Shown: one piece after another, positions 11,821 through 49,951 of the stretch
Layout: the number at the start of each line of letters is the position of its first letter
Position numbering within the stretch: position 1 is the stretch's first letter
Assembly (NCBI GenBank): GCA_947168815.1
Contig: CAMVNG010000001.1
Coordinates: 310,001-374,000 of the forward strand
Direction of reading: 5' to 3'
DNA: 64,000 nt
Source of the DNA: an uncultured bacterium
GTDB lineage: Bacteria > Patescibacteriota > Gracilibacteria > Absconditabacterales > Absconditicoccaceae
The notes under the pieces: generated by a model
Seen by the model: the letters and a program-made list of their open reading frames with translations, nothing else
What the model was told of the DNA's origin: nothing
Databases searched by the model: none
Translations under genes and position numbers: made by a program

Positions 11821-13083
11821 ATGAAACCTACTTTTAAAATAAACTCAAAATTAAAAGAAGAATTTCCACAATTTTTTCCAATTCTTGAAAAATTATTTCA
11901 AAAGAACGAAAATCCTAAATTAGCAATTGCACTATCATGATGAAGTGACAGTATAACGCTTCTTTCCCTTCTAGTCCTTTTTTATAAAGAAAAGGGGCGG
12001 GATAGTGAAAACATCCACATTCTTCATTGCAACCACAAAATTAGAAAAGAAAGTAATGATGAAGAAAAACAAATCAAAGAATATTTAAAAAATTACAATC
12101 TTACTGTGTTTCACAGAACAATTAAAACAAAGAATACCGAAGAAGACCTTAGAACTCGAAGATATCAAGAATTCGACACATATTGCCAATCAAAAAAAAT
12201 CAATTATATCCTTTTCTGACACAATCTTACAGATAGAATAGAAACATCTATGATGAATATGATTCGCTGATGTTGAATGAATTGATTTCTCAATATGAAA
12301 ACAATTTCATGACATCCTCTATTAAAAAACACACAAGTAATTAGGCCTCTTCTCTCTTATCCAAAAGAAAAAATTGAAGAAGTATGTAAAACATATAACA
12401 TTCCATATTTTGAAGACAAAACCAATTTTGATACATCAACTAGCCTAAGAAATGAACTAAGACACAATTACATCTTTCCTCTTTCAAAACTCTGAAAAAC
12501 AGAAAATAATTTTTTCAAAAGTCGAAATACTATTTATCAAGAACTAGAAAATTTAGAAAAAGAAAATTATCTCACCCCATTAAAAATTTGTCCATATCGA
12601 AATATAAGTAAAGCATACGAACGAACAATTACAAAAGAAATGATCAATAAAAGCACTATTTCTAGTCTATTTTCTCAACTAGGAATTTCAATTGAAGAAA
12701 AAGATATCTGAACAATAATTAAATGGATTTCTTGAAGTGATTCATGATTCCACATGCTAAAATGATGGACATTATTTTTAGCACATCAACGTTTTTATAT
12801 CTTCAATACTAATACAAAATTTCGAGAAAAAGAACTTAAACTAGAAAAAAAGATTGTAGAATCAGGAATGCAAGTATTCGGAAAATATCAAATCGACATC
12901 CCAAAACAATTAATTTGAGCAACACTAAGATTTCCTAAAACATGAGATCATTATAATTGAAAACTTTTATGAAAATGGGCTGTAAATCACAAAATTCCCC
13001 TTTTCCGAAGGAATATACTTCCACTTGCAGAAAAAGATAAAAAAATTATATTCGTATTTGAACCGAAACATCTTATTTACTAA
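11821..13083 (+). CDS. tilS: tRNA(Ile)-lysidine synthase TilS
   Basis: ATP-dependent ligase that converts C34 of tRNA-Ile(CAU) to lysidine, so that it reads AUA. 420 residues. The PP-loop is LAIALSGGSDSITLLSLL at about residue 38, with both Gly of SGG written UGA. Then come HILHCNHKIR, a tRNA-site EEDLRT-x-RYQEF, ILFGHNLTDRIETSMMNMIRG and FDTSTSLRNELRHNYI. The C-terminal domain ends with KIPLF-x-RNILPL, where x is CGA at codon 396 and Trp is the natural residue. It heads a plus-strand cluster with two membrane-protein genes; the next ATG is 11 bases after its stop. Confidence 0.95.
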
Positions 13084-13094
13084 ATTCTTGACAC

Positions 13095-13628
13095 ATGGAC
13101 TTCCAAAAAATTCTATCATCTATATCTGATGGTTATACGTGGTTTATAACAGAATTTTCAACATTATTCTGAGTTTCAAATCTTGTAGGATGAATTCTAT
13201 TCCGAGTTATTGTTTTCTATCTAATTATTTTCTTGGTTATTATCCCAATTCATAAAAAATTAAAGAAACAAAGACTCATTAAAGAACAAGAAATAGTTCA
13301 AGATGTAGACGAAATGATTTATCTTCTTGCAAAAGCACAACACACTAAATGAATAGATGTTAGAAAACTTTGAGGAAATCCAAATATCGCATTAATGAAA
13401 AGCATTTTCACAAAATGAAATTGCGATTATATAAAAAGTACTTATCTTATTTTGGATAACATCCATAAAGTTGAAACACTTCTTTGAGATAAAATTATTA
13501 GTATAGACAAAGAAAGCCTCTTATTAAAAGATGCTAAAAAATATAATAGTTTAAAAAGTACTGAGAATGTATTTTTCCGAATAGCAGTACCTTCAACACT
13601 AGGTATTTATTATGTTCTTTGAGCATAA
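13095..13628 (+). CDS. membrane protein of unknown function
   Basis: 177 residues, not recognised. A long hydrophobic helix spans about residues 22-55 (LVGGILF-x-VIVFYLIIFLVII). It is followed by a basic stretch (HKKLKKQRLIKEQE), a soluble helical domain, and a second hydrophobic segment at the C-terminus (FF-x-IAVPSTLGIYYVLGA). The two x positions are CGA (codons 37 and 162). Arg inside both membrane helices would be odd and Trp would be normal. It starts 11 bases after tilS and is probably co-transcribed with it and the next gene. Confidence 0.75.
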
Positions 13629-13694
13629 AATAAACATTGAAAAACCTATTTCTTTTTCTAAAATGATAATGTTTTATTCATTAAAAACCATTTA

Positions 13695-15245
13695 ATGCAA
13701 AAACAAGATTTTTTCAGTAAACAACAAAATAGAGGTACTTTTTCTTGAGGAACGATAAGACAACAACCAAAACAAGAGAGCTGATGACATGCTACTCTTT
13801 GGGTTGTAATTATACTATTAATCATCTTATGAATCGGAGCTTACTTCTATAAAGATAAAATACTTACTCAAGAATTTATAGAACCTGAAATTGAAAACCC
13901 ATACGAAATCTGAAAAGAAATCCAAGAAGAAGGTATACTATCAGCAGATGGAGATCTCCTCAATTATACACACTCTCTAGCTACAGCATCTTGAGATATC
14001 TTTCTTCTAAAAAGTAAAACAATATCACTTAACAACATCACAAATCTTTCTTGAACTTATATCGTAGAATGAACAATTGAATCAATATATTCAGGATACC
14101 CTCTAGTAGAAGTTAAGAGGATTCAATCAAATTTCACAGATGAGAATCAAGAAAATATTATCTTATCTGATGAATGAACACCTCGTATCTTCGTAAAAAA
14201 TGCAATGCTATGATTCCCTATAGATTTTAACGACAATTATACTTTTGTTGGAGAAGCTTGAGAAAACAATAGTATCAGTATTAAGAATTTTGAAAATGAA
14301 AAAATAACAAAAATAGATTTCTTTAATTGTAGTGATTCTGGAGATACAAATTGTAAACAGCTTACTAAAACTTTTGATGCAAATGCTACAAAAAAAATCA
14401 CAACATTAAATGGAGATACCTATTATAAACTTCCAGATGTAAAAAGTTGGTACTTCCAAAACTGAAATTGGCGAGGATATTTTATTAACGATGCAGATGA
14501 TGAAGAAGTTGAAAAACTAAAAGATTATATAATTATTCCTAACGCTGAAATCATAAAAGATATCGTTACTCGTTACGGAGTTAGAGTATGTTTATGATCA
14601 GATGATGGATTAAATATGATTACTTCTCACTCAGTTAGTAAAACAGCTAATGGTCTTCTAATAACAATGAAAGGAGAAGGAGATAAATACTTTACATGTG
14701 AAGCATACCTAGATCTTAGTGAAAACAATCAATTAAAGCTTCATGATTTAAAGATAGAAGAAAAGAAGGAAGAAACAGAAGTTAAAGAAGAGCAAAAACC
14801 TGGAGAAGAAACTAAAGAAGAGAAAAAGGAAGAAAAAGAGGAAAATAAAGATGTTGCAACAACATCAAATCTGCCTGTAACACCTTCTGTAAAACAATTC
14901 CCAATCAATCTAGAAAAAACTATGACATATAATTCATCAAGAGGTGGATATAGTATGATATTCCCTTCTTCTAACATTTCATATACCTCTGATGCTGTAA
15001 ATGAAGACTTTAACCAAGTTTGAGTTCGCTGTTCATATACCGTAAAAGCAATTCAATATAAATATAAAGAAGATCTACAAACTAATCCAAGCATTATTGT
15101 CTATGAATGTAGTTTCAAAAATGGATTTGAACTTCCATGAGAAAACTTCTTCTTAAAAGAATTAAATGATAAAAAATTCGTTATCGAAGTTAGAGAACCA
15201 TCTTGGTTTGACTTTGCTAAAAACATCCAAATCACTTGATTATAG
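13695..15245 (+). CDS. single-pass membrane-anchored protein of unknown function
   Basis: 516 residues, not recognised. A short cytoplasmic N-terminus (MQKQDFFSKQQNRGTF) precedes one transmembrane helix at about 34-51. The large remainder is probably outside the cell: a beta-rich domain with FNCSDSGDTNCKQL (possible disulfide), a Lys/Glu-rich low-complexity linker at about residues 355-395, then a second beta-rich domain with paired Cys (VRCSYTV and VYECSFKNGF). It follows the 177-residue membrane gene by 66 bases and ends at an intrinsic terminator. The topology fits an envelope or pilus-associated protein; this is inference. Confidence 0.75.
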
Positions 15246-15247
15246 TA

Positions 15248-15273
15248 TTAAGAGTCTTTTAGACTCTTTTTAT
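15248..15273 (+). terminator. intrinsic terminator of the tilS cluster
   Basis: AAGAGTC-loop-GACTCTT hairpin at 15250-15268 followed by a T-rich run, directly after the stop at 15245. Confidence 0.75.
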
Positions 15274-15290
15274 TTTCTTTATTGAAAAAA

Positions 15291-15536
15291 ATGAGAGAAA
15301 TAAAACTACACAGAGTATATAAACATTTCAAATGAGATTATTATCTTGTTGAAGACTTAGCAACACACTCAGAGACACAAGAAACATACGTTATTTATAG
15401 ACATCTTTACTGAAACTGAGACTTATGTATCAGGCCACTTGATATGTTCCTTAGTGAAGTTGACCATGAAAAATATCCAAATGTTGAACAAAAATACAGA
15501 TTTGAACTCCAAGAAATAGAAAAAAAGAATAAGTAA
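15291..15536 (+). CDS. DUF1653 family protein
   Basis: 81 residues, covering the whole DUF1653 domain: [44 protein letters not shown], then [11 protein letters not shown] and YRFEL. These match the family pattern of K-G-x-Y-x-V, HSET, Y-x-x-LYG-x-G and RPL-x-MF (the Arg is AGG). Function of the family is not established; members are small cytosolic proteins. It converges on the L,D-transpeptidase gene with only two bases between the stop codons, both inside one palindromic terminator. Confidence 0.88.
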
Positions 15537-15552
15537 TATTACTTATTCTTTT
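15523..15552. terminator. perfect 30-base palindrome containing both convergent stop codons
   Basis: The arm AAAAGAATAAGTAAT is followed at once by its exact complement. The TAA of the DUF1653 gene (15534-15536) and the TAA of the L,D-transpeptidase gene (15539-15541) are mirror images inside it. As RNA it gives a hairpin ending in U-rich sequence on either strand. Confidence 0.75.
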
Positions 15553-16285
15553 CTAAACTAATTTGATATGGTTTGTGAATAATAATAACTGTTTTTTTAT
15601 TTTCAGGAACATGTTCATAAAGCCGTTTTATATACAATCATGGAACTCTTATACATCCATGAGAATTTTCTACTTCACTCGTATCTCACCAATGCATAAA
15701 GTAATCTCAGTCATACTGCAAAGCATAAGGCATTGGCTCTCTTTTATTTAGCCATGAACGACGATCTTTCAAATTATGCACAATACGATAAATTCAACCT
15801 TTCGTCTTGGATTTTTTTCATCAAATTGAAACATAAGTTGCCAATCTTAATTCTTGATCTTCATAATATCCTAATATAACTCTTTCCTTATCATCACGCA
15901 AAATAAGTATTACATTATTCTCCTTCTCCAAATAACGCTTCTCATAAGTTGAGAATTTTACCAATTCTTCAATTCAAGAAAGATTCAAAGGAAGATATCA
16001 CGATATTTCAGGATAAATTAAAGGATAATTAATAAATTTTACACCCGTATACGAATCACTTCAAGTTTTATTTGTAATGCCATTATATTTCAAAAGAAAT
16101 TCTGTTTGCAAATTTCAAAAAAGAGTATCAAAAGTTTTAGGCACATCATCCATTTCATAAAAAGCAGTGGTATGAAGCTCATGATATGTCAAAGTATCAG
16201 TTTCCATTCAAACAGGCAAAACAGAACCTGTTATAATAGGAACCAAATAAGGAATAGGAACTAAGGCTTGTAATAAAAAGCTCAT
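15539..16285 (-). CDS. L,D-transpeptidase (YkuD family)
   Basis: Wall enzyme making 3-3 peptide cross-links, or attaching proteins to peptidoglycan, outside the membrane. 248 residues. A hydrophobic N-terminus (MSFLLQALVPIPYLVPIITG) could be a signal anchor. The catalytic motif is HWGDTSEVENSHGCIRVPG, with the His, SHGC and R of the YkuD active site; the Arg is AGA. Upstream strands include LRLATYVSIGGK and GGIYRIVHN. It is the last gene of a minus-strand run that starts at 18395, but a terminator at 16355-16381 separates it from the upstream genes. Confidence 0.93.
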
Positions 16286-16354
16286 CAATATATACAACGA
16301 TAAACAATGAAGATTGTAATAAAGCTAAAAAGCAACACAAGAGCATTTTTAAAT

Positions 16355-16381
16355 AAAAAAGGATTCTATCAAAGAATCCTC
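16355..16381 (-). terminator. intrinsic terminator after the 187-residue gene
   Basis: AGGATTCT and AGAATCCT arms around a 5-base loop. In the minus direction the hairpin is followed by TTTTTT. Confidence 0.75.
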
Positions 16382-16413
16382 AATACTATAAATAATTAAA
16401 AACAAATATATTT

Positions 16414-16977
16414 TTAAGATGGAGATTCCGCCTTATCAGCTCAAATTTCAACAGTTGATTCACCTTCACTTCTTTCAGCTCATGGAACTAAAATATCTGC
16501 TGTTCAATTTCAAATTGCTGATTCCATAACTTGTGGTGTTCACTTAGCTCTTCACATCTGAGCAAAATTATTATCTACTACTCATGTTTTTGCAGCTGCA
16601 AAAAGGTATTGAGCATCACTCACAACAGCTAGCTTTGCTTCATCTGCTGCCTTCTTTTCAGCAACTGGTTTTGGCAATCCAGACTGCAAATAAGAATCTA
16701 ACTTCAACTTATAAATATCATTATATTTTTCTTCTAACTCATCTTCTTTCTGCTGCGCCTCTAATGCAGTTGCTCAAAAAAGTTCTTGACCGACACCAGA
16801 AGTTAAATCATTTTTAAATGTTTGTTGTACATCTGGATTTTGCATAAAATTTTTCAAAGCTTCCCGAACTCCCTGAAATCTAGCATCCAATGTATCAGTA
16901 TTACCTCATTCCACATATTCAACATTGTTGGTAGCTTCAGGATCCATCAAATATACAAGCTTAAAGGAATTCATCAT
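16414..16977 (-). CDS. unknown protein, helical, in a four-gene cluster
   Basis: 187 residues, not recognised. No signal peptide is visible. The N-terminal half is soluble and helical (ARFQGVREALKNFMQNPDV). A central Lys/Glu/Ala-rich helix (ATALEAQQKEDELEEKY and PVAEKKAADEAKLAVV) looks like a coiled coil. The C-terminal part is Gly/Ala/Ser-rich (GTADILVPGAERSEG). It starts at ATG 16977 (MMNS) or 16974. It is last in a run with the genes at 17007, 17555 and 17970 and is followed by a terminator. Confidence 0.7.
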
Positions 16978-17006
16978 TTTATCCAAAAACAAAATATAAA
17001 ATATTA

Positions 17007-17528
17007 TTACTCATCTTTCAACATCATCTTAAAACTTTTACCATCCTTCACTAATTGATAAGTGAATTCAACTTCATTAATTTTCATAGTATAATGATTA
17101 TCTCACTCTGGCAAACGATAAACAGTTTCTTCTCAATCAGGAGATACTTCTAATATCAATAGAATAGTTCTCCTTTGTCCATCATACCAAAAATTTACTG
17201 GTATAATACAATCACCATTTGGACTTAAAGTTGGGACTACATCAGTTCATACCCCCTCAAATCCAAAATCTTTATCATCATGTTTTCAACTTTCAAAGGA
17301 AAGGAACTCAGGATCTTGAATATCCTTTTTAATTTTATTCATGATTAAGGAAATTTCTGAAGGTGTTAACTTTCTTTCTTTATCTGAAAGTCTATCTTCA
17401 AAACTTAATAATCCCTCTAATCAAGTACCACTACCTGTTTCTTGTATTAAATTTAAGATAGCTTGATCCAAAGAACCAGCATTTACAGGGACTTTATTCC
17501 CTACCACTTGTTTTGTCTTTTTTGTCAT
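17007..17528 (-). CDS. unknown 173-residue protein
   Basis: Not recognised. The N-terminus is Lys-rich (MTKKTKQVVGNKVPVN), followed by a helical segment with LDQAILNLIQETGSG and LTPSEISLIMNKIKKDI. From about residue 95 it becomes beta-rich with a repeating strand pattern (CIIPVNFWYDGQRRTILLIL, EETVYRLPEG, YTMKINEVEFTYQLVKDGK). No membrane segment. It lies 26 bases after the 92-residue gene and 29 before the 187-residue gene. Confidence 0.7.
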
Positions 17529-17554
17529 TTGTATATTTTAGATAGGAAATAAAA

Positions 17555-17833
17555 TTACAATGCCGTAAACATTGCATCTAAATCAGCCAAATCTTCTTCT
17601 TTTTGTTGAGATTCATGCTGTTGCATAGAATTTACTTGTTCTAATCTTTGTTTAAATTGTTGTTTTTGTACTTCAGTGTAAGTATTATGAACACTCTTCC
17701 TAAAAACTTCATAAAGTCTATCAAATACTTCTGGAGAAAGTTGATCATTCTCAAGAAGAGCCTTTAATCCCCATCCCATTTTCCAATCAGGCAAGAACTC
17801 AATCACTTGAAGCATAAACTCTTTTTTTGTCAT
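17555..17833 (-). CDS. small helical protein, paralogue of the gene at 27047-27328
   Basis: 92 residues, mostly helical: MTKKEFMLQVIEFLPDWKMG, then VFDRLYEVFRKSVHN, and an acidic C-terminus (EEDLADLDAMFTAL). It shares an N-terminal MTK-[KR]-E, a P-x-W-x-M-x-x-G core, D-x-[LI]-Y, K-x-[VI]-x-N and a hydrophobic C-terminus with the 93-residue protein encoded just upstream of the 1,593-residue gene. No known family comes to mind. There are no in-frame UGA, CGA or CGG codons. Confidence 0.75.
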   Translation of the reverse strand: MTKKEFMLQVIEFLPDWKMGWGLKALLENDQLSPEVFDRLYEVFRKSVHNTYTEVQKQQFKQRLEQVNSMQQHESQQKEEDLADLDAMFTAL

Positions 17834-17911
17834 TCCTTTTTTGTTTTTCCATGAATAAAATTTTCATTCACAATTATAATCAGAAAAAAAATTCTGTCAA
17901 ATTCCATAAAG

Positions 17912-17936
17912 AAAAAAACATGGTGAAAAACCATGC
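17912..17936 (-). terminator. intrinsic terminator after the 141-residue gene
   Basis: GCATGGT-loop-ACCATGT hairpin followed by TTTTTTT in the minus direction. It sits between the stop at 17970 and the 92-residue gene, so the latter probably has its own promoter or depends on read-through. Confidence 0.65.
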
Positions 17937-17969
17937 TATCAAAAACAATTAACATTATAATAAAGAAAC

Positions 17970-18395: not shown

Positions 18396-18544
18396 AACAG
18401 TAAAGAAAAGCATCATAAACAATAAATATCATACAAAAAATGATATTAAAAATCAATTTTAATAAAACAGCCCCAGAATCCTTGATTATTATAAAAAAAT
18501 TACTACAATTATGTCATGTAAAACAATTTTATATTCTTACAATA

Positions 18545-19111: not shown

Positions 19112-19137
19112 TTAAAAAAGAGAAAGAATAAGTTAAA

Positions 19138-20070: not shown

Positions 20071-21110
20071 TTATCACAATATCTTACCTCAGGTTCTAAA
20101 TGAACTCAAAATTTTTCATACACTGATTTTTGTACATTCTTAGCATAATCTTCAACTGCTTTTCAAGACGGATTAGCATTAATAAGAATAAGAGCATGTT
20201 TTTCATACATTTTCACCTTATTTACCTCCTTACCTTTCCATCAACAAAGTTCAATTAATTGTCATGCTGAAAGTTTCATAGTCTCATTATCTGTCAAATG
20301 AGCCCTAAGATCTGGGAATTTTTTTTCTAAAGTATCTCGCTCTGGTAAACTTAACTCAGGATTCTTAAAATAACTCCCTGCTGTTCATACTTTTGTATGA
20401 TCTGGTAATTTATTTTTTCTAATTTCATAAATCGCCTGAGAAATAGTTTGTAACTTTTTTAATGAGTCTAATTTCTCAAAATCAATTCAATTACTTGAAA
20501 AATAAGTTTCTACATCTTTATAACTCGTTATATATTCATAATTCTCATCAATTTTTTGTAACTTAAATACAACATGAGTAATAATAAATTTATCTTCTAA
20601 ATCATGTTTAAAAATACTATCACGATAAGCAAACTCGCAATCATTATTACTTAATTTTTGAATAGTATTTGTTTCTAAATTAACTCAAATAACTTCATAA
20701 ATAACATTTTTCACTTCTTGACCATAAGCTCAAATGTTTGAAACAGCACTAGTTCAAACATTTCATGGAATAGCTATTAAATTTTCAATTCATCAAAATG
20801 AATTATCAAGACAATACTGAACAAAATCATCTCGAACTTCTCATGCTCAAACTTGAAGATAAACTGCATTTTCATCCTGTTTTATCAATTCAATACCCTT
20901 AATTCCCGGATGAAGGACGATTCAGTCAAAATAATCATTTAAAAATAAGGTATTTGATCATCATCAAAAAATCCAATGTTTATTCTCTTTCCACTCTTGA
21001 GTTTCTATAAACTGAAGAAGTTGATAGGTATTAGGAATATCAACATACATTTTAGCAACACAATTAACCTGAAGTGTATTTAATGGTTGAAGAGAATAAT
21101 CTTTTTGCAT
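20067..21110 (-). CDS. murB: UDP-N-acetylenolpyruvoylglucosamine reductase MurB (type I)
   Basis: FAD/NADPH-dependent cytosolic reductase forming UDP-MurNAc. 347 residues, E. coli-like length. Signatures: PLNTLQVNCVAKMYVDI, FGGGSNTLFL (FAD phosphate), GAGEV-x-DDFVQYCLDNS, IENLIAIPGNVGTSAVSNIGAYGQEV, FAYRDSIFK, and AGSYFKNPEL with the active-site Ser. At GAGEV-x-DD the codon is CGA (codon 93), where MurB has a conserved Trp (GENW). This is among the best evidence that CGA is not Arg here. A terminator for the next upstream gene lies just before it. Confidence 0.95.
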
Positions 21111-22262: not shown

Positions 22263-25200
22263 TTATGCTTCTTGTGTTGTTGTATTTGTTTTATCCGGTT
22301 TCTTAAATCAAGTTTTTATAAAATTAGTTTGTAATTGATAAATTTCATAATAATATGCAAAGTTCTTAGGATCCTTAATATCTATTTTAGACTTTAATTC
22401 CTCGATTGCAACTAAAGCTTCATCCACACTAATTCATCAATCTTCTCATTTTACATACTTAATTCAATTTTCTTTTATTTTATATGTTTCTGACATGAAT
22501 TCATTAAATGTGATAGTTGTTGAGTCTCACCAAGAATCACTTTCTAAAGCAACAACTGTTTTGTAATTAGATTCAATCTTAACTAAAGCCTCTCTTAAAT
22601 CCGATAATCAATCAAGTCATTTTCTTAAGTATTGAGACATGTTAATGGTTTTTGAATTATTATCATCATCAACTATTGTGAATTGTTCTCATACTTGACT
22701 CTCATAATCAGTAACTGTCTTATCTATAAATGCGATGATATCACCAGGAGTATTTAATCAAATACTTGATAAATACTGTATAAAATTATTAATTCTTACC
22801 GAATCTTTTAATTTTTTTCACTCTTGTACTCATTCAACACTATTATTAGAAAATTCATGAGCCAAATTTATCATATACGACATAGCTGCTAATTCTTCAT
22901 TTACAGTCTTAACCTCCCTACCATTTAACATATAAGTTTTTACTTTTCATTCTGTTCTTTCTGTTCACAATTGGATTAATCAATATCATTTCGGTTCAGG
23001 AAAAAACTCACAATTAATTAATAATCCATCTTTTGAAGGTATATTAAATTCTACTCTAATATCTCACTTCGCAATAAGTTCCTCGACAAGAGCACTATGT
23101 TTATTTCATTCTTTATCACTCCATTCAGCAACATAATCACCATTAGAATTTTCTTTTAATGTAAGCTTTGCATGATTTATAAGTGTAAACTCCAAATCCA
23201 TAATTTTTCAATCAGATTCATATTGATCTAATTTTGTCTTTCAACTATCTCATTTAATCAAAGCAACATTACGAAATGTTTGAGCATCAGTAGCAACATC
23301 TATATCTCATCATAACTTCATAAAATCAGGATTATTAAGGAATAATGATCAAGAACTCAAGACAGATCGTTGTTGCTGTCAATCCATAAGCTCTGCAGTA
23401 ATATCCAATCAATGGAAAAAACATTCTTTTGCCTGTTCTAAAGGAATATCATTCTCTGGTGGTTCGTGGGTATCCTTTAAGGTATACTCGCACTTCCCAT
23501 CCTTTTTAGGAACCTCAAATTGATTAGCAGGTAACCTTACTTTATCAACAATCATATGATGAGCTACCTCAGCATCCATATTCACAGCAAGTTTCGGTTC
23601 TTTTCAAAAATAATCATTTTGTGGCCTAATTGTTAAAGTTATCTTAGAATTCTTAAAAGTTGCTACTCAATTATCATCAATGGTAACAATTCACTTCCCT
23701 CCATTTTCTACCAAAGACTTAAAAGCATTCAATTCGTCCACATTTCCATAATAAGCCTCTCAATCTTTTGAATGATCTATCATTATTCAAAAACTTGACA
23801 TCGTAGCTCATAAATTTCTAATATCAATAGATGCTTTTGATGGAACCAATTGAATAATCTCAGAATGATTTGGATCAATCTCACTTGGTTTAGAAAATGT
23901 TCAATCCGGATTCTTTATAAATCAATGCTGTTCAAAATGAGAAGTTAATGCATCTAAAGCTCAAGGACTATCTAAATCATAATCCAACTTCATTACAAAA
24001 TTCGAATTTCAATCTTGATAAAAATCATTTAATGTAACCTTATGATTTGAATACAACTTTGAATTATTTGGTCAAGGTGTTAAAGAATTCCATGTAGAAA
24101 CCAATAATCACAATAATGGGATATCAAAACGATTTGCAATTTCATCAGCTCATGTTTCAACCGTCTCTTCTCACAATTCTTCTCAAAACTCAGTTCTAAA
24201 TTTATTTGCCCAACTTCTTCAAAAATTTTGGTTAATTTTACTCTCTGCATTTTCAAACATCTGATTTGCAAAAGGGTCTTTAGTTTCTGCAAATTTTGGA
24301 TTTATTCTTTTCAAAAAAGCTTCCGCCTTAGTATTCGGATTTTTTGAAAGATATCAACTTATAGACTTTCCTATTAATTGTCATGCCTTCATGAATCAAA
24401 AACAAGTTACTGTTCACGTTACAAACTCAGTTCATGCATTTATCAAAAAATCCTGTAATGAAAGTTTTCAATTCCACAACATTCTAACATCCGAAGGATC
24501 ATCAAATCTTATTTCAATTTCTTCGTCTCAAACTTTAATCGTAGTTTTGAAAATCGTATTCTGAACGAGATTATTGAGCTCTGTTCATAATCTTGATCAA
24601 ACCATAGAACCAGCTGTCATAATAGCTGCCATTCAAAGCAACGACATTCATCAAGTAGGTATAGCGGCAACCAAAGCAACAGCACATCAAATTGCTGTAA
24701 TAATCTGTATAGCATTATCTCTCAAAAATGCTAAAATCTGTTCTCATGTTTCATCATTCGAATAAACATTTTTTTTGTTCAAAATATAATCTACAAATTT
24801 ATCAATAGCTCATCATTCTTTTATTGCTCTTTCAAGCACAACCAATTGAGTAATACAATTATTCAACGCTTGTTCTTCATCTGTAGTTAAAGATTTATTA
24901 TTACGAGCTTTCTTAACATTCTCCAAGTGTGTTCTTAGTGAAATAATAGAATCTTTTTTTCATCTTAATTTTTTTGTATAATTCCTTAATTCTACAGCTC
25001 TTCTACGTGCTTCATCAGTATCAAAATCCGTCAATTTATAATCCTTCATTTTACTAATTATATTTTGTATACCATCCATTCCATTTTTCAAAGAGGAGAA
25101 CTCTTCACCATTAATTTGCATTTCCCTAGTTAAAATGCTTCCGACTCACATAGCACTAGATCTTCTAGTATTTTCTTGTTCTTCTTTCGATATAGTTTTA

Positions 25201-27044
25201 AAAGGCGTATCCTCTCATATTTTATAGATTGAAACACTACCATCTTTATTTGTTTTCGAATATGAAAGGTCATTTAATGATAAAATATTCATGTCCCTTT
25301 CTGCATAAAATCATCTAGTATCTGAATTATACGATCATCATCTATTTCATATATTATTTGCAAATTGCTTACGATAATTTCGAATAACAAGATTAATTTC
25401 TCATCTATTCGCCTTATTAAATAATTGAATTATTTTATTTTCATCAGCATTCTTAAATCTAATAAAAATAGGCTGACATCAAGGAACAGTAACCTTCTTA
25501 AAAGCTGGATGTATCTCTGGTTTGCTACTTCAAATATGTCCAGAATAATTATACACAGGTCATTGAAGCTGATGATCAAAAGCGTTAGCTTCAATAGGCC
25601 AATTCTGTTTGAATTCCGCATAAGTAACTCCCTGAACCATCCATTTTCACTTTTTATCATTCTGTGCATCAATTTGAGAGAGTAAATCATGAGTCTCTTC
25701 ACTATCTTTCCATCTAGCTTCTGCTTCTGTTCTAGCTTTCTTTAAGTCTTTTAATTCATTCTCAGAAAATAGATTCTTAATCTCTGCCTCTGTAAAATCT
25801 TGTCACATTTGTATTAGAATTTGATCTATACACCCCTGATCACCAATATCTTTTGCTAAATTTATAGCCTGTTTATACAAGTTTATTCTCTCATCTCTAT
25901 TCTTAGTCTTATCAAGACTGTTAATCTGTTTAATAATATTGTTTAAAACACCGACTTTTCTATTTAATTCTCTTTGCTTTAATAACAATGCAAATTGCTC
26001 ATTGTTCTTTAAATTTATTTCATTTTCATCGACAATTTTATTTTTTAAATTTTCAACTTTAAATAAATAATAATCAGAATCATTCGTTATATTTGAAGGA
26101 ATATCACTATCAGTCAATGGAGCTAAAAAAACATTACTTCATTTTGTTTTTTCAGCTAGTATAAGATAAATCATCAAAGTTTCGAAAGCTCATCATCAAA
26201 TTAAATTTTCAAAGTGTAATCATTCTTGTTTAAATGGAAGAAAAAATTCTAAGAAATTTTTCAATACTCTATTTTGTTGTTCATTTGATAATTCTCACAA
26301 CAATTCATTTAAATTAGGAATATTAGTTAACTGAGGAAATGCTTTTAATGCTTCCCTTCACTTTATAACTCATTCCCTCGTAATTAGTTCTTGCCTATAA
26401 ATATAAAGATTTGTAATTCCTTGGTTTTCTCCATTTCTCAAACCACTCGCTCATAACTGTCATCTTTTCCCATCTATTTGAAGATTCTCTCCATAATTAA
26501 CATTTGCCCAAAGTTGTATATATTTTACTTGAGATTCAGTATATGGAGATTTTCATGGCGTTCTATTTGCAGCAATTATCTTGTTAACAGCTTCTGATAT
26601 TCCACTAATTTTATTATCAATAATTGATTTAATCTTATTTTTCTTATCTTGAAATTCTGATCAGAATAATTGATTTCGCTCATTTAACAAAGCAATATTT
26701 TGCGGCAATATATCATTCGTCTGTATACATTCATCAATAACTTTATTTAAACTTACTTTCTCTTTTAAATCTGGATACTTATCTCAAAACTTATCTAAAA
26801 AATATTCTACTATTTTTTGTTGATTATCAGAAATATCTACTTGAGATAATATTTTTTCACACAAACCTTTTAATACATTTTCAAATTCTCACAACAGTTC
26901 TGGTGAAGTAGCTCAATTTAAAGCTTCTCCCAACCTTCATAAATTTTCATCAGATTGCAAAAACTCTTCAATTTCTTGAGAATCAATTTTTTCATTAGGA
27001 TTGATAACATCCATCTCACTTTTTAATAATTCCGCATCACTCAT
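22263..27044 (-). CDS. 1,593-residue protein of unknown function with a central membrane region
   Basis: One open frame of 1,594 codons with many UGA glycines; not recognised. Residues 1-640 are soluble and helical, with an acidic N-terminus (SDAELLKSEMDVINPNEK) and coiled-coil-like Asn/Lys-rich segments. Around residues 760-830 there are hydrophobic helices (IQIITAI, VALVAAIP, LLGMAAIMTAGSMVGSRL). A second helical region is followed by a long soluble C-terminal half with beta-rich stretches, ending EIYQLQTNFIKTG and a Thr-rich tail. A 93-residue partner ends 2 bases upstream. Its size and the single membrane core suggest an envelope-spanning or surface structural protein; this is inference. 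Confidence 0.75.
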
Positions 27045-37182: not shown

Positions 37183-38556
37183 TTAGCGTCATTTAAATAT
37201 CACACCAAATGTTCATACAATAACATAAATATCTAACCATATAGACCGATTCTGAATATAATACAAATCCAATTTTGCTTCTTGATCAAAGCTCAAAGAA
37301 TCTCTTCAAAAAACTTGTGCATATCAAGTAATTCAAGGTTTTATACTCAACAATCTTTTCTGCCAAGGTTCATAATTTTTAACCTCATTCTCCAAATGTG
37401 GTCTAGGTCATACAAGAGACATTGTTCAAACAAAAACTGAAAAAAGCTGAGGTAATTCATCCAATGAAGTTTTACGCAAAAATTTTCATACTCTTGTTAC
37501 TCTTGGATCATTTTCTATCTTAGGCAACACTCAATCTCTTGTGTTAGCATCTGATTCAATAAGCTTTTTATAAAGATCATCAGCTTCTTTTCCTCCATAT
37601 CACACACTTAAATGAGTATACATTGTACGGAACTTCAAAAACGTAAACAATTTTCATCATGTTCACACTCTTTTTGATTTATAAATTACAGGACCTTTTG
37701 AATCAAGTTTAATTGCTATTGCAACCAATAAAAAGACTGGAGAAAGCAAAATGATTCAAAAGAAAGATCAAATCAAATCAAAAATTCTTTTTACTATAAT
37801 TGACCAACCATCTAGTTTAGAATGTTTATATTCTAATGCGATAATATTTTGGATAACCTCTGGTTTATAAACAACATCTTCCAAGAAAAAACCTTCTGAA
37901 ATATGGAAAAATCTTGTGTCATGGAATCTCGTTTTTTCAAAAATAGTTTGTAACTTATCTTTTTTAAAATTTCAAACAACCACACACATTTCATAATTTC
38001 AAAATTTTGTTTCCTCTATCTCATCTGAACGAATAAATTCTGTTGGCAAAGAAAAATTGTCTTTAATTGTTCTCAATATTTCGAAAGAATCCATTGTTTC
38101 ATCAGAAATAATAAGAATTTTTTTTCAAGATTTTTTCTCTTGTTGATACTCAATTGCCCTCCATCATTGATCAAAGAAAAAAATCACAATATAACTTAAT
38201 ATTCAAGCAAAGATAATAATAAATCTTGAGATTCAAAAAAAGAAGATAAATCCTTGTCCAAAATAAGATAAAAATGAAATAGAAATAAACCGATAAATCC
38301 AAGTTTTTGAGAATGTTTGAAAATGGTTAACAACTCTCCTATTTAAACAATAAAAGTCTTTAACAATTCAAATTAAAATAAATCAGGCACTTGAGATTAA
38401 AGAAAAAATCATCAACTCCTGAGGATTAATCAATGGAATAGGTAATTGAACTCAAGGAATTAGATCTGTCCACATCCTTATTTTATACATCAAAAAGAAA
38501 AGTGCATTAATAATAAGGAAATGAAAAAATGGTCTAATAAGACGGAGTTTAAACAT
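37183..38556 (-). CDS. polyprenyl-phosphate sugar-1-phosphate transferase (WbaP/PglC type)
   Basis: Membrane enzyme that starts glycan synthesis by moving sugar-1-phosphate onto undecaprenyl phosphate. 457 residues. About four hydrophobic N-terminal helices, a soluble central region (KKILIISDETMDSFEI), then a re-entrant helix and the catalytic domain: DLIGSFFGIILLSPVFLLVAIAIKLDS, GPVIYKSKRVG, FLKFRTM, LRKTSLDELPQLFSV, MSLVGPRPHL and KPGITGYAQVFG. Near the end YYIQN-x-SIWLDIYVI has CGG (codon 437) where the family has Trp (N-W-S). A partner for the WecG-like enzyme is plausible. Confidence 0.92.
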
Positions 38557-41868: not shown

Positions 41869-41888
41869 TCTCAATTTAAATAATAAAT

Positions 41889-42419: not shown

Positions 42420-43109
42420 ATGCATATATATCTAATATCACTTTTCCCAGAACTTTTTGAAAGTTTTTTAACAACATCTCTAATTCAAAAAGCTCAAGAA
42501 AAAAAGATACTCACCTTCTCAACACATAATCCAAGAGCATTCTGTACAGATAAACACCAACAAATTGATGACCAAATATATTGATGAGGAGATGGAATGC
42601 TTATAAAAGCACAACCTATTGTTGACTGTATTGAAGATATCATAACAAAAAACAATCTAGAAAAATCTGATTTTTCTATTATATTTCCATCGCCATCAAA
42701 AGAAGTATTTAATCAAAAAATAGCATATTGATTAAGTAAAAAAGAACATCTCATTTTTGTTTGCTGAAGATATGAAGGAATAGATTATAGATGTGAGGCA
42801 TATCTCCAAAAAAAATATCATGAAAATTTTAGGAAAATTTCCCTTGGAGAATTTATTGTACTATGATGAGAAACTCCTAGTATGGTAATGATTGAAGCGA
42901 TAACAAGACTGATTCCATGAGTAATAAAAGAAAAATGAAGTCGAATTAATGAAAGTTACTCAATAAAAGAAGGATTAAAAAACCTCGAAGCTCCAAATTA
43001 TACAAGACCTTTAGAAGTTTTTTGAATGAAAGTCCCTGAAGAACTACTAAGTGGAAATGATAAAAAAGTTGAAAATCGAAGAGAAAAAAATAAAGGAACT
43101 ACCTCATAG
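42420..43109 (+). CDS. trmD: tRNA (guanine-37 N1)-methyltransferase TrmD
   Basis: Makes m1G37 in tRNAs, preventing frameshifts. 229 residues. Signatures: MHIYLISLFPELFESFL, the trefoil-knot SAM site IYGGGDGMLIKAQPI, FIFVCGRYEGID-type motif (LIFVCGRYEGIDYR), ISLGEFIVLGGE, and the C-terminal NYTRP and LLSGNDKKVEN-x-REKN. The last x is CGA (codon 220), where TrmD has the conserved Trp of W-R, and CGA also occurs in KGS-x-INES. It is a single gene between two minus-strand units, converging on the RelA/SpoT-like gene with 19 bases between. Confidence 0.95.
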
Positions 43110-43128
43110 CTCCTCATTTTTAATACCT

Positions 43129-45390
43129 CTATCCTTCAACCTTTTCTCATACAACATAATATTGCGGATCCTTTCTTTTTCATAAATTCACACGATTTAC
43201 GATATCTCACAACTTTGCCCAAAGCACTTTCTCTTGATCCTCATCATAAATTCAAATCCATGCTTCTGCCTCATCTCTTAAATAAGAATACTGTTGCTTT
43301 CAAATTTCTTGAGAAGAAACAACTTGTATATTATAAAGATCGTCACTATCCAAATTATTTGTAGTTAATAATCACTTAGAAAGCATAATATCTTCTCTTG
43401 GATGTGTTTTTCAATCCCTTGACTTATAATAAAAGAAAAAAGAACCCTTTTTTATAAAATAATTAATAACTTCAATAATTGTTTTATCAATATCTGTACT
43501 ATTTGAAATATTTCTATGATTAAATCATGAAATATTCATCTTAACTCCATTAAAAAAATCAATTATTGAAAATTTTCTATCTTTGTGTTTGGCCCAAACA
43601 GCCATTTTTTTGATATTTTTTTCAACTTCTTTTCTTACAGAAGATAAAGGAAGATTGAATGAAAGATTACTTTGAGTATTAATACTTCTTTCACAATTTC
43701 TAATATTATAATTTGCTAGACCGACTCAATTATTAATATCATCAAATTGTACCTCTATTGTTTTTTCTCATACACTATTACCTTCTCTGTCTTTAACATC
43801 AATAATAACATTAAACTTAAAATCTTTATATGCACCATTCACTCCTCTAGGTTTTCCACCTGTAATCTGTCTATAAAAAGCTAAATATGTTAACCGTTTT
43901 TCTGTATCTTTAAAATCATCAACATGATGTTCCTTCATTTCATTTTTCCATTCTTCTTCTGTTATAAAACTAGACTTTTGCTTTTCTCTTTTTGCAACTT
44001 TACCAGGCAAAATACCATTTAAATCTTCCAAAATCTGATTCATTTCTCAAATCTTTAATACATTTTTATTATCAATAGTTATTGATCTTATTTCAATTTT
44101 TTCTCAATCTTTAGCATTCACATACTTATCTGGATGATTTTCCAAACTAGTCACAAAATACTTAATCCATTCAGATGCAATTTTTTCAATATCTGTAAAA
44201 TGATCTTTACTTGCATCTTCCATTGAAATACGGAATCCAATAGCATCATTAATTTTTTTTCATTCAATTATTTTTTCAACACAAGAAGATAATGATTTTT
44301 TTCTCCTTCAAACTCTAAATGGATTTTCTCACTTTTTTTCATGCATATTATAAGACTCAACAATATTTGTTAATTGTCATCCTCAAATTTTTTCAAGATT
44401 GGTTGTTGTATAATCCCATTCAAAATCTGGTTCATCTTCAAAATCTTCAGACAATCAAGGATTATAAGTCTCATTATCAACCAACTTATGTATTCCCAAC
44501 TGATTATTTGTAAGAGCCCAAAGAATATCAGCATACTGTGCTGTTTTTTTTGACCATTCCTTATTTCATTCTTCACTTCTTTTTCAAAAAGGATTATGCT
44601 TGTCTCTCGTTATAAGATACTGAACAACTTCAACATAATCTTCCAAGTCAGCTGGTGTTTTATCCGTAATAAACGGAAAATCTCCATCATGAAAGACCTG
44701 ACTAATACTTTTTCACCACTCCTTCCAAACAGTATTAGCATTATAAAACAAGGTAAACATATACTTCCTACAAAGTTCAGAAAAAACAATCTCTTCTTTT
44801 CCATCAGCATCTTTCTGTACAGAAAAAGCTCTTTCTCAAAATTTTTCATTCATTAGCTTCCCAATTTGGGCATATGCATTATATTTTTCAATACCATCTT
44901 TTCATTTTTTTATTAAATGATGATACTGTGTTATAAACTTTCTATATGTTAAATTCTTCTTATCAACCAAATATTGAATATTCTTTTTCATGTGCATCTC
45001 AATAAACTTGCGAATTCCATTTTTATAAGCCTTTTTAATATCTTCCTCTTCTATATTTCTATCAATCTCATCAAAAAGAGAATTCTTCAAAGAATTAATT
45101 AATGTCTTTGATGTTCACTCCTTAATATTTGCTAGATTAAAATGAAATTTCGGATTTTCATATTCCTCAAGTTCTCTAATTTCAAAATCTTTAGTAAAAG
45201 AAAGCCCTCTTGAAATATATCACTCATCTCAAATATTAACATGTAACAACCATTCGATCAATCTTCTTTTTATATTTCTTTCCAAATTACTATATTTCTG
45301 CTTAATCTCTTCCGTATGAAGGACCTCCTTTTTTGAAACCTCCTTCTTAGAAACAGACTTATTGGATCATTTTCTTTTCCTTTCTGGCAT
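43129..45390 (-). CDS. RelA/SpoT-fold protein of unusual size, putative
   Basis: 753 residues; no signal peptide or membrane helix. The N-terminus is Lys-rich (PERKRKGSNKSVSKKEV), followed by ~300 charged helical residues. From about residue 350 a region recalls the RelA/SpoT nucleotidyltransferase fold: FRVGRRKKSLSSCVEKI then KINDAIGFRISMEDAS (the R-x-K-x3-S-x3-K ... D-x-x-G-x-R pattern). Much later come RGVNGAYKDFKFNVIID and TIEVQFDDINN, resembling the synthetase GY...EVQ core. No HD hydrolase or TGS/ACT domains are visible, so it is not a standard long Rel. The call rests on motif order only; a nucleotide-modifying or toxin role is possible. Confidence 0.45.
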
Positions 45391-45422
45391 TCCTTCAAAT
45401 AGATATAAAGATTATTACATAT

Positions 45423-45451
45423 ATTATACTACAATTAATGACAATTGTCAA
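45423..45451 (-). promoter_or_regulatory. consensus sigma-70 promoter of the RelA/SpoT-like gene
   Basis: In minus orientation TTGACA (45446-45451), a 17-base spacer, and TATAAT (45423-45428): a perfect consensus. The ATG lies 32 bases downstream. Confidence 0.85.
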
Positions 45452-45470
45452 GACATAACAAATAAAAAAA

Positions 45471-45496
45471 GTAGAGAATTGCATTTAATTCTCTAC
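45471..45496 (-). terminator. intrinsic terminator of the rubrerythrin gene
   Basis: GTAGAGAATT and AATTCTCTAC arms around a 6-base loop, followed by TTTTTTT in the minus direction. Confidence 0.85.
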
Positions 45497-45516
45497 CAAA
45501 AGAAATGAAAAAATTA

Positions 45517-46092
45517 TTAATAATTAAATGAAGCTATTTCAAAATATGCTTGTGGATGAGCACATGCTGGACATACTTCAGGAGCACTAACTCATTCGTG
45601 AAGATATCCACAATTTCTACACTTCCATATAATTTTATCTCACGCCTTAAATACATTTCCTGCTTCCAAATTTTCATATAATTTTCTATATCTTGCTTCA
45701 TGTGCTTTTTCAGCTACAGCAATCATTCTAAAAACCGCTGCAATTTCAACAAATCACTCCTCTTGTGCTATTCTAGCAAACTCAGGATAAGCTTCTTCCC
45801 ATTCTTCTTTTTCTCCATCAGCTGCAGCCTTTAAATTTTCTAATGTTGTTCCTATTTTCCCAGCAGGATAAGTTGCTGTAATTTCCACCATTCTTCCTTC
45901 TAAGAACTTAAAGAATCTTTTTGCATGTTCTTTTTCATTCAATGATGTTTCTTCAAAAAATCCAGCAATTTGTTCTAAACCTTCCTTTTTTGCTTGTTTA
46001 GCAAAATAGTCATATCTCATCCTTGCTTGAGATTCTCCAGCAAATGCTTTTAAGAGATTCTTTTCTGTTTGACTTCCTTCTAATTGAGGCAT
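45517..46092 (-). CDS. rubrerythrin
   Basis: Non-haem iron peroxidase that removes hydrogen peroxide in anaerobes. 191 residues. The ferritin-like di-iron domain has AFAGESQARMRYDYFAKQAK, EETSLNEKEHAKRFFKFLEG and VFRMIAVAEKAHEARYRKL. The C-terminal rubredoxin-type domain has WKCRNCGYLHEG and PEVCPACAHPQAYFE with four Cys. A single gene flanked by terminators, between the RelA/SpoT-like gene and the aldo/keto reductase. It suggests an anaerobic or microaerophilic life. Confidence 0.95.
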
Positions 46093-46198
46093 GGCAATAA
46101 TAATTAGAATTTAAATACATCAAATAACAAAATCAGAGTATCAAATAGCTACAAAAAATCAAGTTTTCTTAAAATTGCTAAAAACATATCAGAAAAAG

Positions 46199-47017
46199 CT
46201 ATTCATACCTAGGAGCAAATGGCGGATTATTATAACGAAAATGTTTTTCCAAACGATCAATACTCTGCACTGTATTTTCACTTAAAACGACTCTTCATGC
46301 TTCAATATTTTCTTGAAGTCTCTGAAAATTCGAAGATTTTGGAATAACAAAAAAGCCTTTACTCAATAAATAAGCCAACAACATTTGTGGTACAGATATT
46401 CACATTTCATTTGCTAATATCATCAACTTTTTATCCTTCAACAAATGTCCATGTCAAAATGGAGAATATGCAACAATATTAATATTCTTCTCCTTGCAAA
46501 AACCCTCCAATAATTGATTTTCTAAACAAGCATGCCTTTCAATTTGTAAATATTCAATCTCATTTCAAAACAAAGAATAAAATTTTTCAAGCATACCTTT
46601 AGGAAAATTAGAAACTCATAGATGTAAAATCCTGCCTTCTCTCTTATACTGTAATAGTTTTTCAAATGCTTTTGCATCATTTTCATACCATGTAGGCCAA
46701 TGAAGATAAACCAAATCAAGATAATCAGTTCTCAAATCATTAAGTGTTTTTAAAAATCTATCTTCAAGTTGTGAATACAAAAAATCTTCATCTTTAAATA
46801 CATGAAAAGAATAATCAGGAACATAGTCAAACCGGATCTTACTACTAATCCATAATTCATCTCTTTTTCAATAATCTTTAAATACTTTACCTAAACATTC
46901 TTCATTGTGATAAATCCATGCTGTATCAAAATGACGATATCATAAAGATAAAGCATCATAAAAAACAGCTTCATCATGCACTTTCCAAGTTCATAAACCT
47001 ATTTTAGGAAGCTGCAT
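46199..47017 (-). CDS. aldo/keto reductase
   Basis: 272 residues, NADPH-dependent TIM-barrel oxidoreductase. Catalytic tetrad is visible: GYRHFDTAWIYHNEE (Asp and Tyr), WISSKI-x-FDY (Lys) and DLVYLHWPTW (His). Then LGVSNFPKGMLEKF and AYSPFGHGHLLK, and the cofactor region FVIPKSSNFQRLQENI. At SKI-x the codon is CGG (codon 62), where this family nearly always has Trp (K-L-W). The ATG overlaps the stop of the phosphodiester glycosidase gene in TAATG, so translation is coupled. Substrate unknown. Confidence 0.92.
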
Positions 47018-48084
47018 TAAAAACTATCAATTGTAAAAAGATATATTAATACTTGATTGTACAACCATTTTTTATCTGCAGGTAAATCATCATTAACCAT
47101 ATCACGAATAATTCTAATAAATGGCCATCTATACTTTGATTTACCATATTTTTTATAGATCAAATCAATAACATTTTCAACATTTTTCAAACGATTCAAA
47201 TCATCTTGTGTTGGATTGTATCACTGTACTTTTGAAATATTTTTTTCTTCCGGTGTAATACCCGTTAATTTAATATATTCATCCCTATCCAAAACAACAA
47301 AAGCATCCATAACCCTCTTTCTAGATCATCTATCTAAAGTTTTTCAATCATAAACCATAGCTGTACTTGCTCAAGCATCCAAAAACAATGCATTATAACA
47401 TCAAAACTGTTCCTTTAAAAACTTAGGCAATGTTCGTACGCTCATACCTCAAACAACTCACATATAAACTGTCGAATTATCCTGTGTAGAACAAATAAAA
47501 TTTCTATTAGCACGCCCTGTTAATTTTGAATCAATATACAAAGAAGAAGCCTGAACAACATCTTCCCCTTCCAATAATAAAACTGGCCAATTACCAATAC
47601 CAAAATAAAGATCATCCAGTTTATCTTTATTTAAATTACTCCACAAGCCTATATCAGCCTCTCATGAACTTTTTTGAACAAACAAAGGTGTTCATTGTTT
47701 ATCAAATCAAAAAATCATTCTAATTGATGTATCTCACCAATACATACTCCAGTCAGACCCATTACCAAGATAGACTCTTTCTGAAACTGTATGAGTAACT
47801 CTTTTCCCATTTAATTTACATGAAGAATAATCATCAGGACAAAAAAACGCTCAATTTATAGCCGTATCTCATCAAACCTTTTTAGCTAATTCCTCTACAG
47901 TTGCTCATCCATTTTCTGCCGGAGAAGCAACAACAAAATGTTCTCAATCTAAAACAACTTTTATAACTCTTATAGGAGTACTCCCCCTATTTTCTATCAT
48001 TAGCTCCTTATATGCATAAGTTTCGGAACTAAATAACAAAAAAGTACAAATCACAAGTAAGAAAAAAAAGAGCTTTTTAGACAT
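47017..48084 (-). CDS. secreted phosphodiester glycosidase (NAGPA/DUF2233 domain) protein
   Basis: 355 residues. Signal peptide KKLFFFLLVICTFLLFSSETYA. The domain core is GDTAINGAFFCPDDYSSCKL, RVYLGNGSDWSMYWG, GIGNWPVLLLEGE, TGRANRNFICSTQDNSTVYMG and GCYNALFLDAGASTAMVYDG, matching the NAGPA pattern (NG-x-FF, GR-x-N/R-T, LD-x-GxS). The characterised relatives hydrolyse GlcNAc-phosphodiesters, and here the substrate may be wall teichoic-like or surface glycan. The C-terminal ~80 residues are a helical extension. Its stop overlaps the aldo/keto reductase start. Confidence 0.85.
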
Positions 48085-48258
48085 AAGACAAATAATCTTC
48101 ACAAATAAATATACAAAATCAATATTAAAGAGTTGCTAATTGTTTTCAAGCTATTGAAAAATTATCTTAATACAAAGTACTTTACCATTATTTTTACTTG
48201 AAAATACCATCTCTATTAACTAACATTCAAATAGAATTTTAACTCCTAATACACTAAC

Positions 48259-48843
48259 ATGATTAAAGTAAAATCATTTTATTGGATAAACGGATTATTT
48301 TATATCCTATTAGGTCTATTTCTCTGCTTAAAGCCAGAATTATCATTAAAAACAATTATCATAATTGCAAGCATTGAAATCATTATTGCTTGAATTATCT
48401 GAATTATTGTAGATCTTACTACAACAATATATTCTTGAAGAAAAGCACTTATGTTGTTCTCAATTTTTCAAATTATTTTCTGAATTATTCTTTTGCTATT
48501 TCCAGAAATTTGAGAATTTATTGCAGCACTTTTTGTAGTAATCTTAGGTATATGATGCATAATTAAAGGTATTCTTATTACAGTTGATGCATTTAAAACT
48601 AAAAAGCTACAAATTAGCAATCGATGGTTATTACTACTTACTTGAATCATCGTAATTCTTTTTGGATTATTCCTCACAACTAACGCATTCCTAGAAGTTA
48701 TTATTATAACAGTTCTTGTTGGACTTGGAATGGTACTTTATGGAATCCGAATGCTTACAATCGGATTTCAAGTAAAGAAAAAAATTATCACAAATGTTGA
48801 AGAAGATTTTGAAGAAGATTTTGAAGAAACTGATGAAGAATAA
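48259..48843 (+). CDS. HdeD-like (DUF308) membrane protein
   Basis: 194 residues with about six hydrophobic helices in the DUF308 repeat pattern: WINGLFYILLGLFLCLKP, IIIASIEIIIAGIIG, LMLFSIFQIIFGIILLLFPE, FVVILGIGCIIKGI, WLLLLTGIIVILFGLFL and VLVGLGMVLYGI. It ends in an acidic repeat tail (VEEDFEEDFEETDEE). CGA at codon 122 precedes WLLLL, where family members often have a Trp pair. Function of the family is unclear (acid stress in enterics). Separated from groES by 125 bases with a promoter. Confidence 0.8.
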
Positions 48844-48857
48844 AAGTCTAAAAAAAC

Positions 48858-48885
48858 TTGCATTTTTTCTTTGCATGAATATAAC
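48858..48885 (+). promoter_or_regulatory. promoter of the groES-groEL operon
   Basis: ACTTGCAT with -35 TTGCAT at 48858-48863, a 16-base spacer and TATAAC at 48880-48885. The ATG of groES follows 83 bases later; no CIRCE inverted repeat is seen. A nearby GATAAT around 48957 is another possible -10. Confidence 0.55.
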
Positions 48886-48968
48886 AATGTAGCACCTATT
48901 TATGTTATGTGATATCTAGCACAAAATAAACATGGTGAACATTTTATTTCTTTTATGATAATACACTT

Positions 48969-49268
48969 ATGACAAAGCTTATTCCATTGGAAGATCATAT
49001 TGTGGTTAAACCTATGAATGAAGAAACCACAACAAAATCAGGTATTATCCTTCCTGAAAGTAAAGAAAAACCAAGTAAAGGTAAAGTTGTCGCAGTTGGA
49101 AACGGGAAAATCCTTGAAAATTGATCTAGAGCTCCTATTGATGTAAAAATATGAGACATTGTATATTTTGCAAAGTATTCTATAGATGAATTAGAAGTAG
49201 ACGAAGATGGAAAAAAAGAAAAATATCTTGTTATGAAACAAAGTTATATCATGGCAAAAGAAGGCTAA
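48969..49268 (+). CDS. groES: co-chaperonin GroES
   Basis: Heptameric lid of the GroEL folding chamber. 99 residues: [42 protein letters not shown] (mobile loop and core), [20 protein letters not shown], and [10 protein letters not shown] at the end. An acidic Lys/Glu stretch near residue 80 (DEDGKKEKY) is slightly longer than usual. It heads an operon with the SLH-like gene (29 bases) and groEL. Confidence 0.95.
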
Positions 49269-49297
49269 AATTAATTATTTAATTTAACCTAAAAATC

Positions 49298-49951
49298 ATG
49301 AAAAAAATCGTTTGATGTTTAATCCTCTGTACATTATTCCTTTTTGCAGGATATACCTATGCAGTAACAAGCTCTGATGCCTTCGACTGGGCATTAGACG
49401 CAGGACTACTCACTTCCTACAAAACAGAGTATCTAAAAAATGAATACCTTACAAGAGAAATGGTTGCTCCAATTCTTGTAAATTTTATTGACAATATTGC
49501 AAGAAAAGGATACTCAGGAAACTTATGTAAAGCAAATGATATAGAAGTTGCAGAAGATGCTTTTGAGGACGATTTAAGAACTCTTTGTAACTTTTGAATT
49601 CTCCGCTGATCAAATGGAAGAATAAACCCTAAAAGAACTTTGAGTACTCAAGAAGCAGTAGCACTTGTAATGAGAATTATAGATTGATATCAAAAAGAAA
49701 AGACACAAGGACATCGAGCCTACTATTATTATGAAAGAGCAAGAACTCTTTGATATTTAGGAGTGCCAAATATTCTTGATGATTCTAAATCAATGATAAC
49801 AATTGAAGATTTTGTAACCTTCATTTATAGTACTCAGCACCCTTGGGAAACAATAACCAAAACTAAGACTACTGTAAAGTACACAACTTGATGAGAATTT
49901 AAATCATCAGATGACGCACTATTAAAACTTCTAGAAATCTTCGATAGATAA
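49298..49951 (+). CDS. secreted SLH-like protein between groES and groEL
   Basis: 217 residues. Signal peptide KKIVGCLILCTLFLFAGYTYA. Three SLH-type modules: WALDAGLLTSYKTEYLKNEY followed by TREMVAPILVNFI; DDLRTLCNFGILRGSNGRINP then LSTQEAVALVMRII; and GH-x-AYYYYERARTLGYLGVP then ITIEDFVTFI. The x is CGA (codon 140), and Trp would restore the classic HWA motif of SLH domains. SLH proteins bind wall polymers, so this one may be a surface protein. It lies 29 bases after groES and 28 before groEL, clearly in the same operon, which is an odd place for a secreted protein. Confidence 0.8.

Follow-up and report, generated by a model that had tools for sequence, protein, structure and literature searches.

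Few cases are known in which bacteria have reassigned a sense codon, and these are based on computation. The closest described system is the code predicted in 2021 by Shulgina & Eddy for the Absconditabacteria, in which CGA and CGG are read as tryptophan and UGA as glycine, as judged from the residue preferences of alignment columns and from tRNA features (PMC8629427); a 2026 paper treats the Trp reading of CGA and CGG as given for the Absconditabacterales (PMC13092985). Here, we analysed a stretch of 64,000 nucleotides (the window; positions 310,001 to 374,000 of contig CAMVNG010000001.1), for which an original prediction, made from the letters alone, had proposed that CGA and CGG stand for tryptophan. 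Our comparisons indicate, with a probability of about 0.96, that the window comes from a member of the Absconditabacteria (Candidate Division SR1) in whose genetic code CGA and CGG stand for tryptophan and UGA for glycine. The reassignment of CGA and CGG has been known as a prediction for this lineage since 2021; given that the study of Shulgina & Eddy states the same, our result is a confirmation and not a discovery, and the two-codon case is independently confirmed here. The survey to which the original prediction had referred does exist, and makes exactly this proposal for the Absconditabacteria (PMC8629427).

The source genome of the window (1.29 Mb, 99.7% complete) is placed within the Absconditabacteria, in the same family as the genome G022 of our sample, whose tRNA(UCG) is identical to that of RAAC1_SR1_1 (CP006913.1). 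The genome-wide tests covered 665 genes in 827 kb of this genome, which have a GC content of 0.299 and a usage per 10,000 codons of 95 for TGG, 22 for CGA, 4.5 for CGG, 230 for AGA, 37 for CGT and 5.6 for CGC. Low GC, rare CGA and CGG, and Arg encoded mostly by AGA form the profile expected of the Absconditabacteria code. About 22% of the predicted Trp codons in the genome are CGA or CGG, and the window itself holds 52 such codons (43 CGA and 9 CGG) in the 51 genes counted.

In the proteins of the window genome, CGA and CGG were masked as X, and the residues facing them were tallied against the codons of each amino acid. The reference genomes (G046 and G103) are of the same class and are read by the standard code, their tryptophanyl-tRNA synthetase (TrpRS) having no in-frame UGA. 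Among 20 meanings, Trp is the best for CGA (85 columns; 115 natural log units ahead of Arg) and also for CGG (17 columns; 52 ahead of Arg), so that the column check proposed along with the original prediction favours Trp for both codons genome-wide. As a control of the method, 57 of 58 other testable codons were called correctly when treated as unknown. With TGG masked too, Arg lies opposite CGA/CGG in 2 of 103 columns, opposite TGG in 7 of 522, and opposite the other Arg codons in 1577 of 2925. It is thus rarer at CGA/CGG than at the other Arg codons (p about 1e-30), and its frequency there is similar to that at TGG (p=0.65). Columns favouring Arg, which the original prediction had named as an outcome fatal to it, were sought genome-wide and were not found.

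A second comparison was made within the family, with the sole assumption that TGG is Trp in the relatives: the genome's own genes were set against loci of other Absconditabacteria, and well-aligned columns were counted. The 31 columns with CGA/CGG in the window genome lie opposite the relatives' TGG in 11 cases, their CGA/CGG in 13, Phe/Tyr codons in 5 and other Arg codons in none. In the reverse direction, the relatives' CGA/CGG (85 columns) face TGG of the window genome 47 times and one of its other Arg codons once.

The tRNAs point the same way. ARAGORN calls the tRNA(UCG) and tRNA(CCG) of the window genome 'Arg', from the anticodon alone. Both have G73 and U20 instead of A20, with G1:U72 and A1:U72, while A73 and A20 are found together in the genome's GCG, UCU and CCU tRNAs, which are of Arg type. 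The identity table of bacterial tRNA-Trp includes G73 and A1-U72 (PMC9976931), and A/G1:U72 was taken as a supporting tRNA feature in the 2021 study (PMC8629427). Across the 15 sampled family genomes, tRNA(UCG) has G73 and lacks A20 in 15/15, mostly with R1:U72, and every CCG tRNA read in the family likewise has G73 without A20 (that of G010 was read out of register). Trp-type tRNAs with UCG and CCG anticodons, for which the original prediction had proposed a search, are therefore present in the genome; Arg-type ones, which it had regarded as decisive against itself, were sought in the family and were not found. Under the standard code, CGA and CGG would be Arg, and the Trp columns noted in the window would be due to chance in a fast-evolving genome. 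Annotation tools, which label both tRNAs Arg by anticodon, and NCBI table 25, which gives Arg for the two codons, agree with that view. It is nevertheless contradicted by the column tests and by the codon exchange within the family, with Arg opposite CGA/CGG at background and both tRNAs having G73 and no A20, and we consider it extremely improbable. The reading of CGA and CGG as Trp is borne out by column preference, codon exchange and tRNA identity elements alike.

In a separate observation on the same tRNAs, many of the family's tRNA(UCG) (loci L162-L168 and L192-L212) have a mismatch at 27:43 (U:C, A:C or U:U), which leaves a 4-bp anticodon stem. Such 4-bp stems have been discussed, but the group's CCG tRNAs are described with 5-bp stems (PMC13092985).

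All the codons listed in the original prediction were found in the window, in frame. The sites are as follows.

13006..13008, plus strand: TilS codon 396, CGA; predicted Trp, in frame, outside the Pfam domain
20832..20834, minus strand: MurB codon 93, CGA; predicted Trp (GEV-W-DDF), from masked alignment and Pfam
37246..37248, minus strand: sugar transferase codon 437, CGG; predicted Trp (IQN-W-SIWLD), from the G046 alignment and Pfam
43077..43079, plus strand: TrmD, CGA; predicted Trp (VEN-W-REK), from solved structures, G103 and Pfam
46832..46834, minus strand: aldo/keto reductase codon 62, CGG; in frame, Pfam scores equal for W and R
49715..49717, plus strand: SLH-like protein codon 140, CGA; in frame
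52742-52744, 53033-53035 and 53195-53197, plus strand: glycosyltransferase 2 codons 118, 215 and 269, CGA; from Pfam

The TrmD codon is number 250 of the mechanical open reading frame (ORF) and 220 when counted from the likely start. The 177-residue protein has CGA in frame at codons 37 and 162. When masked, MurB codon 93 lies opposite Trp in E. coli (GENW) and 7orz (GEAW), the TrmD codon opposite Trp in 3ky7 (DAWR), 1p9p (RRWR) and 7kff (ERWR) as well as in G103, and sugar transferase codon 437 opposite Trp in G046. These three examples of Trp columns from the original prediction stand, whereas its other named cases do not discriminate. Translation with W instead of R raises the Pfam score by 8.9 bits for TrmD, 5.5 for MurB, 4.1 for glycosyltransferase 2 (Glycos_transf_2, 56.2 bits with W and 52.1 with R), 3.0 for Bac_transf, 1.7 for TilS and 1.1 for M48, and leaves that of the aldo/keto reductase unchanged (0); the SLH-like protein has no Pfam match.

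Two results weigh against a uniform Trp reading. Pfam slightly favours Arg in three families of the window (W minus R of -1.0 for NAGPA, -1.4 for DUF308 and -3.8 for M16), and, genome-wide, Trp lies opposite CGA in 20% of columns, below the 31% found for TGG. Regarding the former, the worst case, M16 codon 59, does not fall on an invariant Arg, the aligned homologues having T or Y there. Regarding the latter, a lower Trp share is expected from newer, less conserved sites, yet it leaves room for some ambiguity. The codons could then have two readings, Trp in some instances and Arg in others, with both synthetases charging the tRNAs; in keeping with this, bacterial Arg identity includes C35 and U/G36 (PMC9976931), and both recoded tRNAs have C35 and G36. 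Such ambiguous decoding is improbable in our estimation, given that Arg at the CGA/CGG columns is not in excess over TGG and that A20 is lost in all recoded tRNAs.

The other half of the code, UGA as glycine, was followed in the same genome. UGA lies opposite Gly in 912/1461 and 600/986 columns (about 62%), and G1:C72, C2:G71, G3:C70 and U73, the elements of a glycine tRNA, are present in the tRNA(UCA). Release factor 2 was not found: the prfB model scores below its cut-off in the genome, and the only matching release factor is release factor 1 (RF1). A glycine-type tRNA(UCA), the loss of release factor 2 and UGA at Gly columns are the marks of the code of NCBI table 25. It should also be noted that RF1 (G000:C9:18920-19933; L101:1474-2565, plus strand) has a PDT tripeptide where E. 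coli RF1 has PAT. Two giant ORFs of 1644 and 1593 aa occupy positions 54553-59487 and 22263-27044 (minus strand) of the window, with 129 and 87 codons, respectively, read otherwise than in table 11 (UGA as Gly).

Taken together, sequence evidence places CGA and CGG at Trp columns, where they swap with TGG, and gives the UCG and CCG tRNAs Trp features without Arg ones. The codons that remain for Arg are AGA, AGG, CGU and CGC, and the genome has tRNAs UCU, CCU and GCG of Arg type for them. In the scheme that we propose, a single TrpRS would charge both tRNA(UCG) and tRNA(CCG), the former decoding CGA and CGG and the latter CGG, while ArgRS would disregard both because A20 is gone.

Two families with UGA as Gly, f14 and f22, have UCG tRNAs with G1, A73 and A20, which are of Arg type like the UCG/CCG tRNAs of standard-code classmates; the CCG tRNAs of f22 are of this type too. 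Judged by tRNA type, the sampled f14 and f22 sisters lack the CGA/CGG recoding. In a further family, f12, the tRNA(CCG) of G012 (L329) combines A1:U72 and G73 with a retained A20, and the pattern used matched no UCG tRNA in this genome; this tRNA(CCG) is possibly a CGG-only intermediate. A scan of GTDB genomes for the recoded-tRNA pattern matched 21 stretches. The named records among them are Candidate division SR1 and Absconditabacteria, including RAAC1_SR1_1, and a few carry unchecked labels of Gracilibacteria, Peribacteria or only Patescibacteria. Viral contigs scanned for the tRNA(UCG) motif gave no match.

Whether the recoded tRNA(UCG) and tRNA(CCG) are duplicated tRNA-Trp with a changed anticodon, or instead recharged tRNA-Arg, is in our estimation evenly balanced. 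When the identity sites and the anticodon are excluded, 26/27 recoded tRNAs are nearer to a tRNA-Trp of the class than to any tRNA-Arg, and in a first tree they were nested among standard-code tRNA-Trp (support 97/85). This nesting was lost in a larger tree, and the G107 tRNA(CCG) clusters with Arg tRNAs. In approximately unbiased (AU) tests, union with the Arg tRNAs was not rejected (p 0.22 and 0.65). Furthermore, tRNAs of separate origin could have come to resemble each other under selection by TrpRS. Since 59 columns are too few, such trees cannot settle a Trp or an Arg origin.

The TrpRS gene lies outside the span covered by the original prediction, and matches TIGR00233 at G000:C1:371702-372676 (NCBIfam 305.6 bits, cut-off 176.75). 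The gene and two of its residues are located as follows.

61702..62685, plus strand: TrpRS gene, the sole TrpRS in the genome; predicted substrates tRNA(CCA), tRNA(CCG) and tRNA(UCG)
62377..62379, plus strand: TrpRS Ala226, at the place of E. coli Ser227 (A36 reader), from alignment and family survey
62503..62505, plus strand: TrpRS Lys268, at the place of E. coli Gly271 (C34 reader), from alignment and family survey

The invariant Trp of TrpRS in the motif QL-x-W is Trp in 51/51 aligned sequences. It is encoded by TGG in the window genome and by CGA/CGG in 4 of the 15 family genomes (G032, G058, G078 and G107); if these codons are read as Trp, those cells would therefore need the recoded tRNAs to make TrpRS itself.

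In the structure of E. coli TrpRS with its tRNA, C35 is read by Lys274, Thr225 and Asp226, A36 by Ser227 with the Thr225 backbone, C34 by the Tyr270-Gly271 backbone, and G73 by Glu155 with Gln152 (PMC12135181). We mapped these contacts by alignment to E. coli chain 8i1w. Thr225, Lys274, Gln152 and Glu155 are retained in 15/15 genomes of the family, Ser227 is lost in 12/15, Asp226 is lost in 10/15, and Gly271 is replaced by Lys in 13/15. In sister families with an Arg-type tRNA(UCG), Gly271 is retained in 6/6, Ser227 in 4/6 and Asp226 in 4/6. Given that CCA differs from CCG and UCG only at bases 34 and 36, this pattern fits a relaxed reading there. TrpRS would accept the new anticodons through altered contacts to bases 34 and 36; at the shared C35 most contacts are retained, as are the ones to G73. 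Against such a specific change, the family TrpRS is widely diverged overall, and the contact columns lost (3/6) do not significantly exceed the other conserved columns lost (23/113; p = 0.12). Because this enrichment is not significant, we put forward the contact changes as a hypothesis only. That the Absconditabacteria pocket was remodelled for CCA, CCG and UCG, with the readers of bases 36 and 34 replaced and the C35 and G73 contacts (Thr225 and Lys274; Gln152 and Glu155) kept, is a tentative proposal that we rate slightly below even odds. If true, this would be a case of a synthetase adapting to the reassignment of sense codons in a bacterium, and the newly named residues are candidates for a direct charging test. 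The 2021 study checked MetRS for AGG as Met, where the contacts proved unchanged, and makes no mention of TrpRS (PMC8629427).

As far as the literature searched shows, four points are new: the codon exchange within the family, the contrast with sister families by tRNA type in these genomes, the invariant TrpRS Trp written with recoded codons, and the observation on the TrpRS pocket. The code of the window genome does not differ in kind from the described Absconditabacteria code, with which it shares clade, codons, amino acid, tRNA features (G73, no A20, R1:U72) and UGA as Gly (PMC8629427). With NCBI table 25 (SR1 and Gracilibacteria) it has UGA as Gly in common, whereas CGA and CGG, Arg in that table, would be Trp in the window genome; translation by table 25 would hence misplace Arg at 651 codons, spread over 307 (nearly half) of the 665 genes examined. 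Finally, Anaerococcus and RFN20 Bacilli also read CGG as Trp through a Trp-type tRNA(CCG), as the window genome is predicted to do, but they lack tRNA(UCG) and still read CGA as Arg (PMC8629427), while in the window genome tRNA(UCG) is present and both codons appear to have moved.

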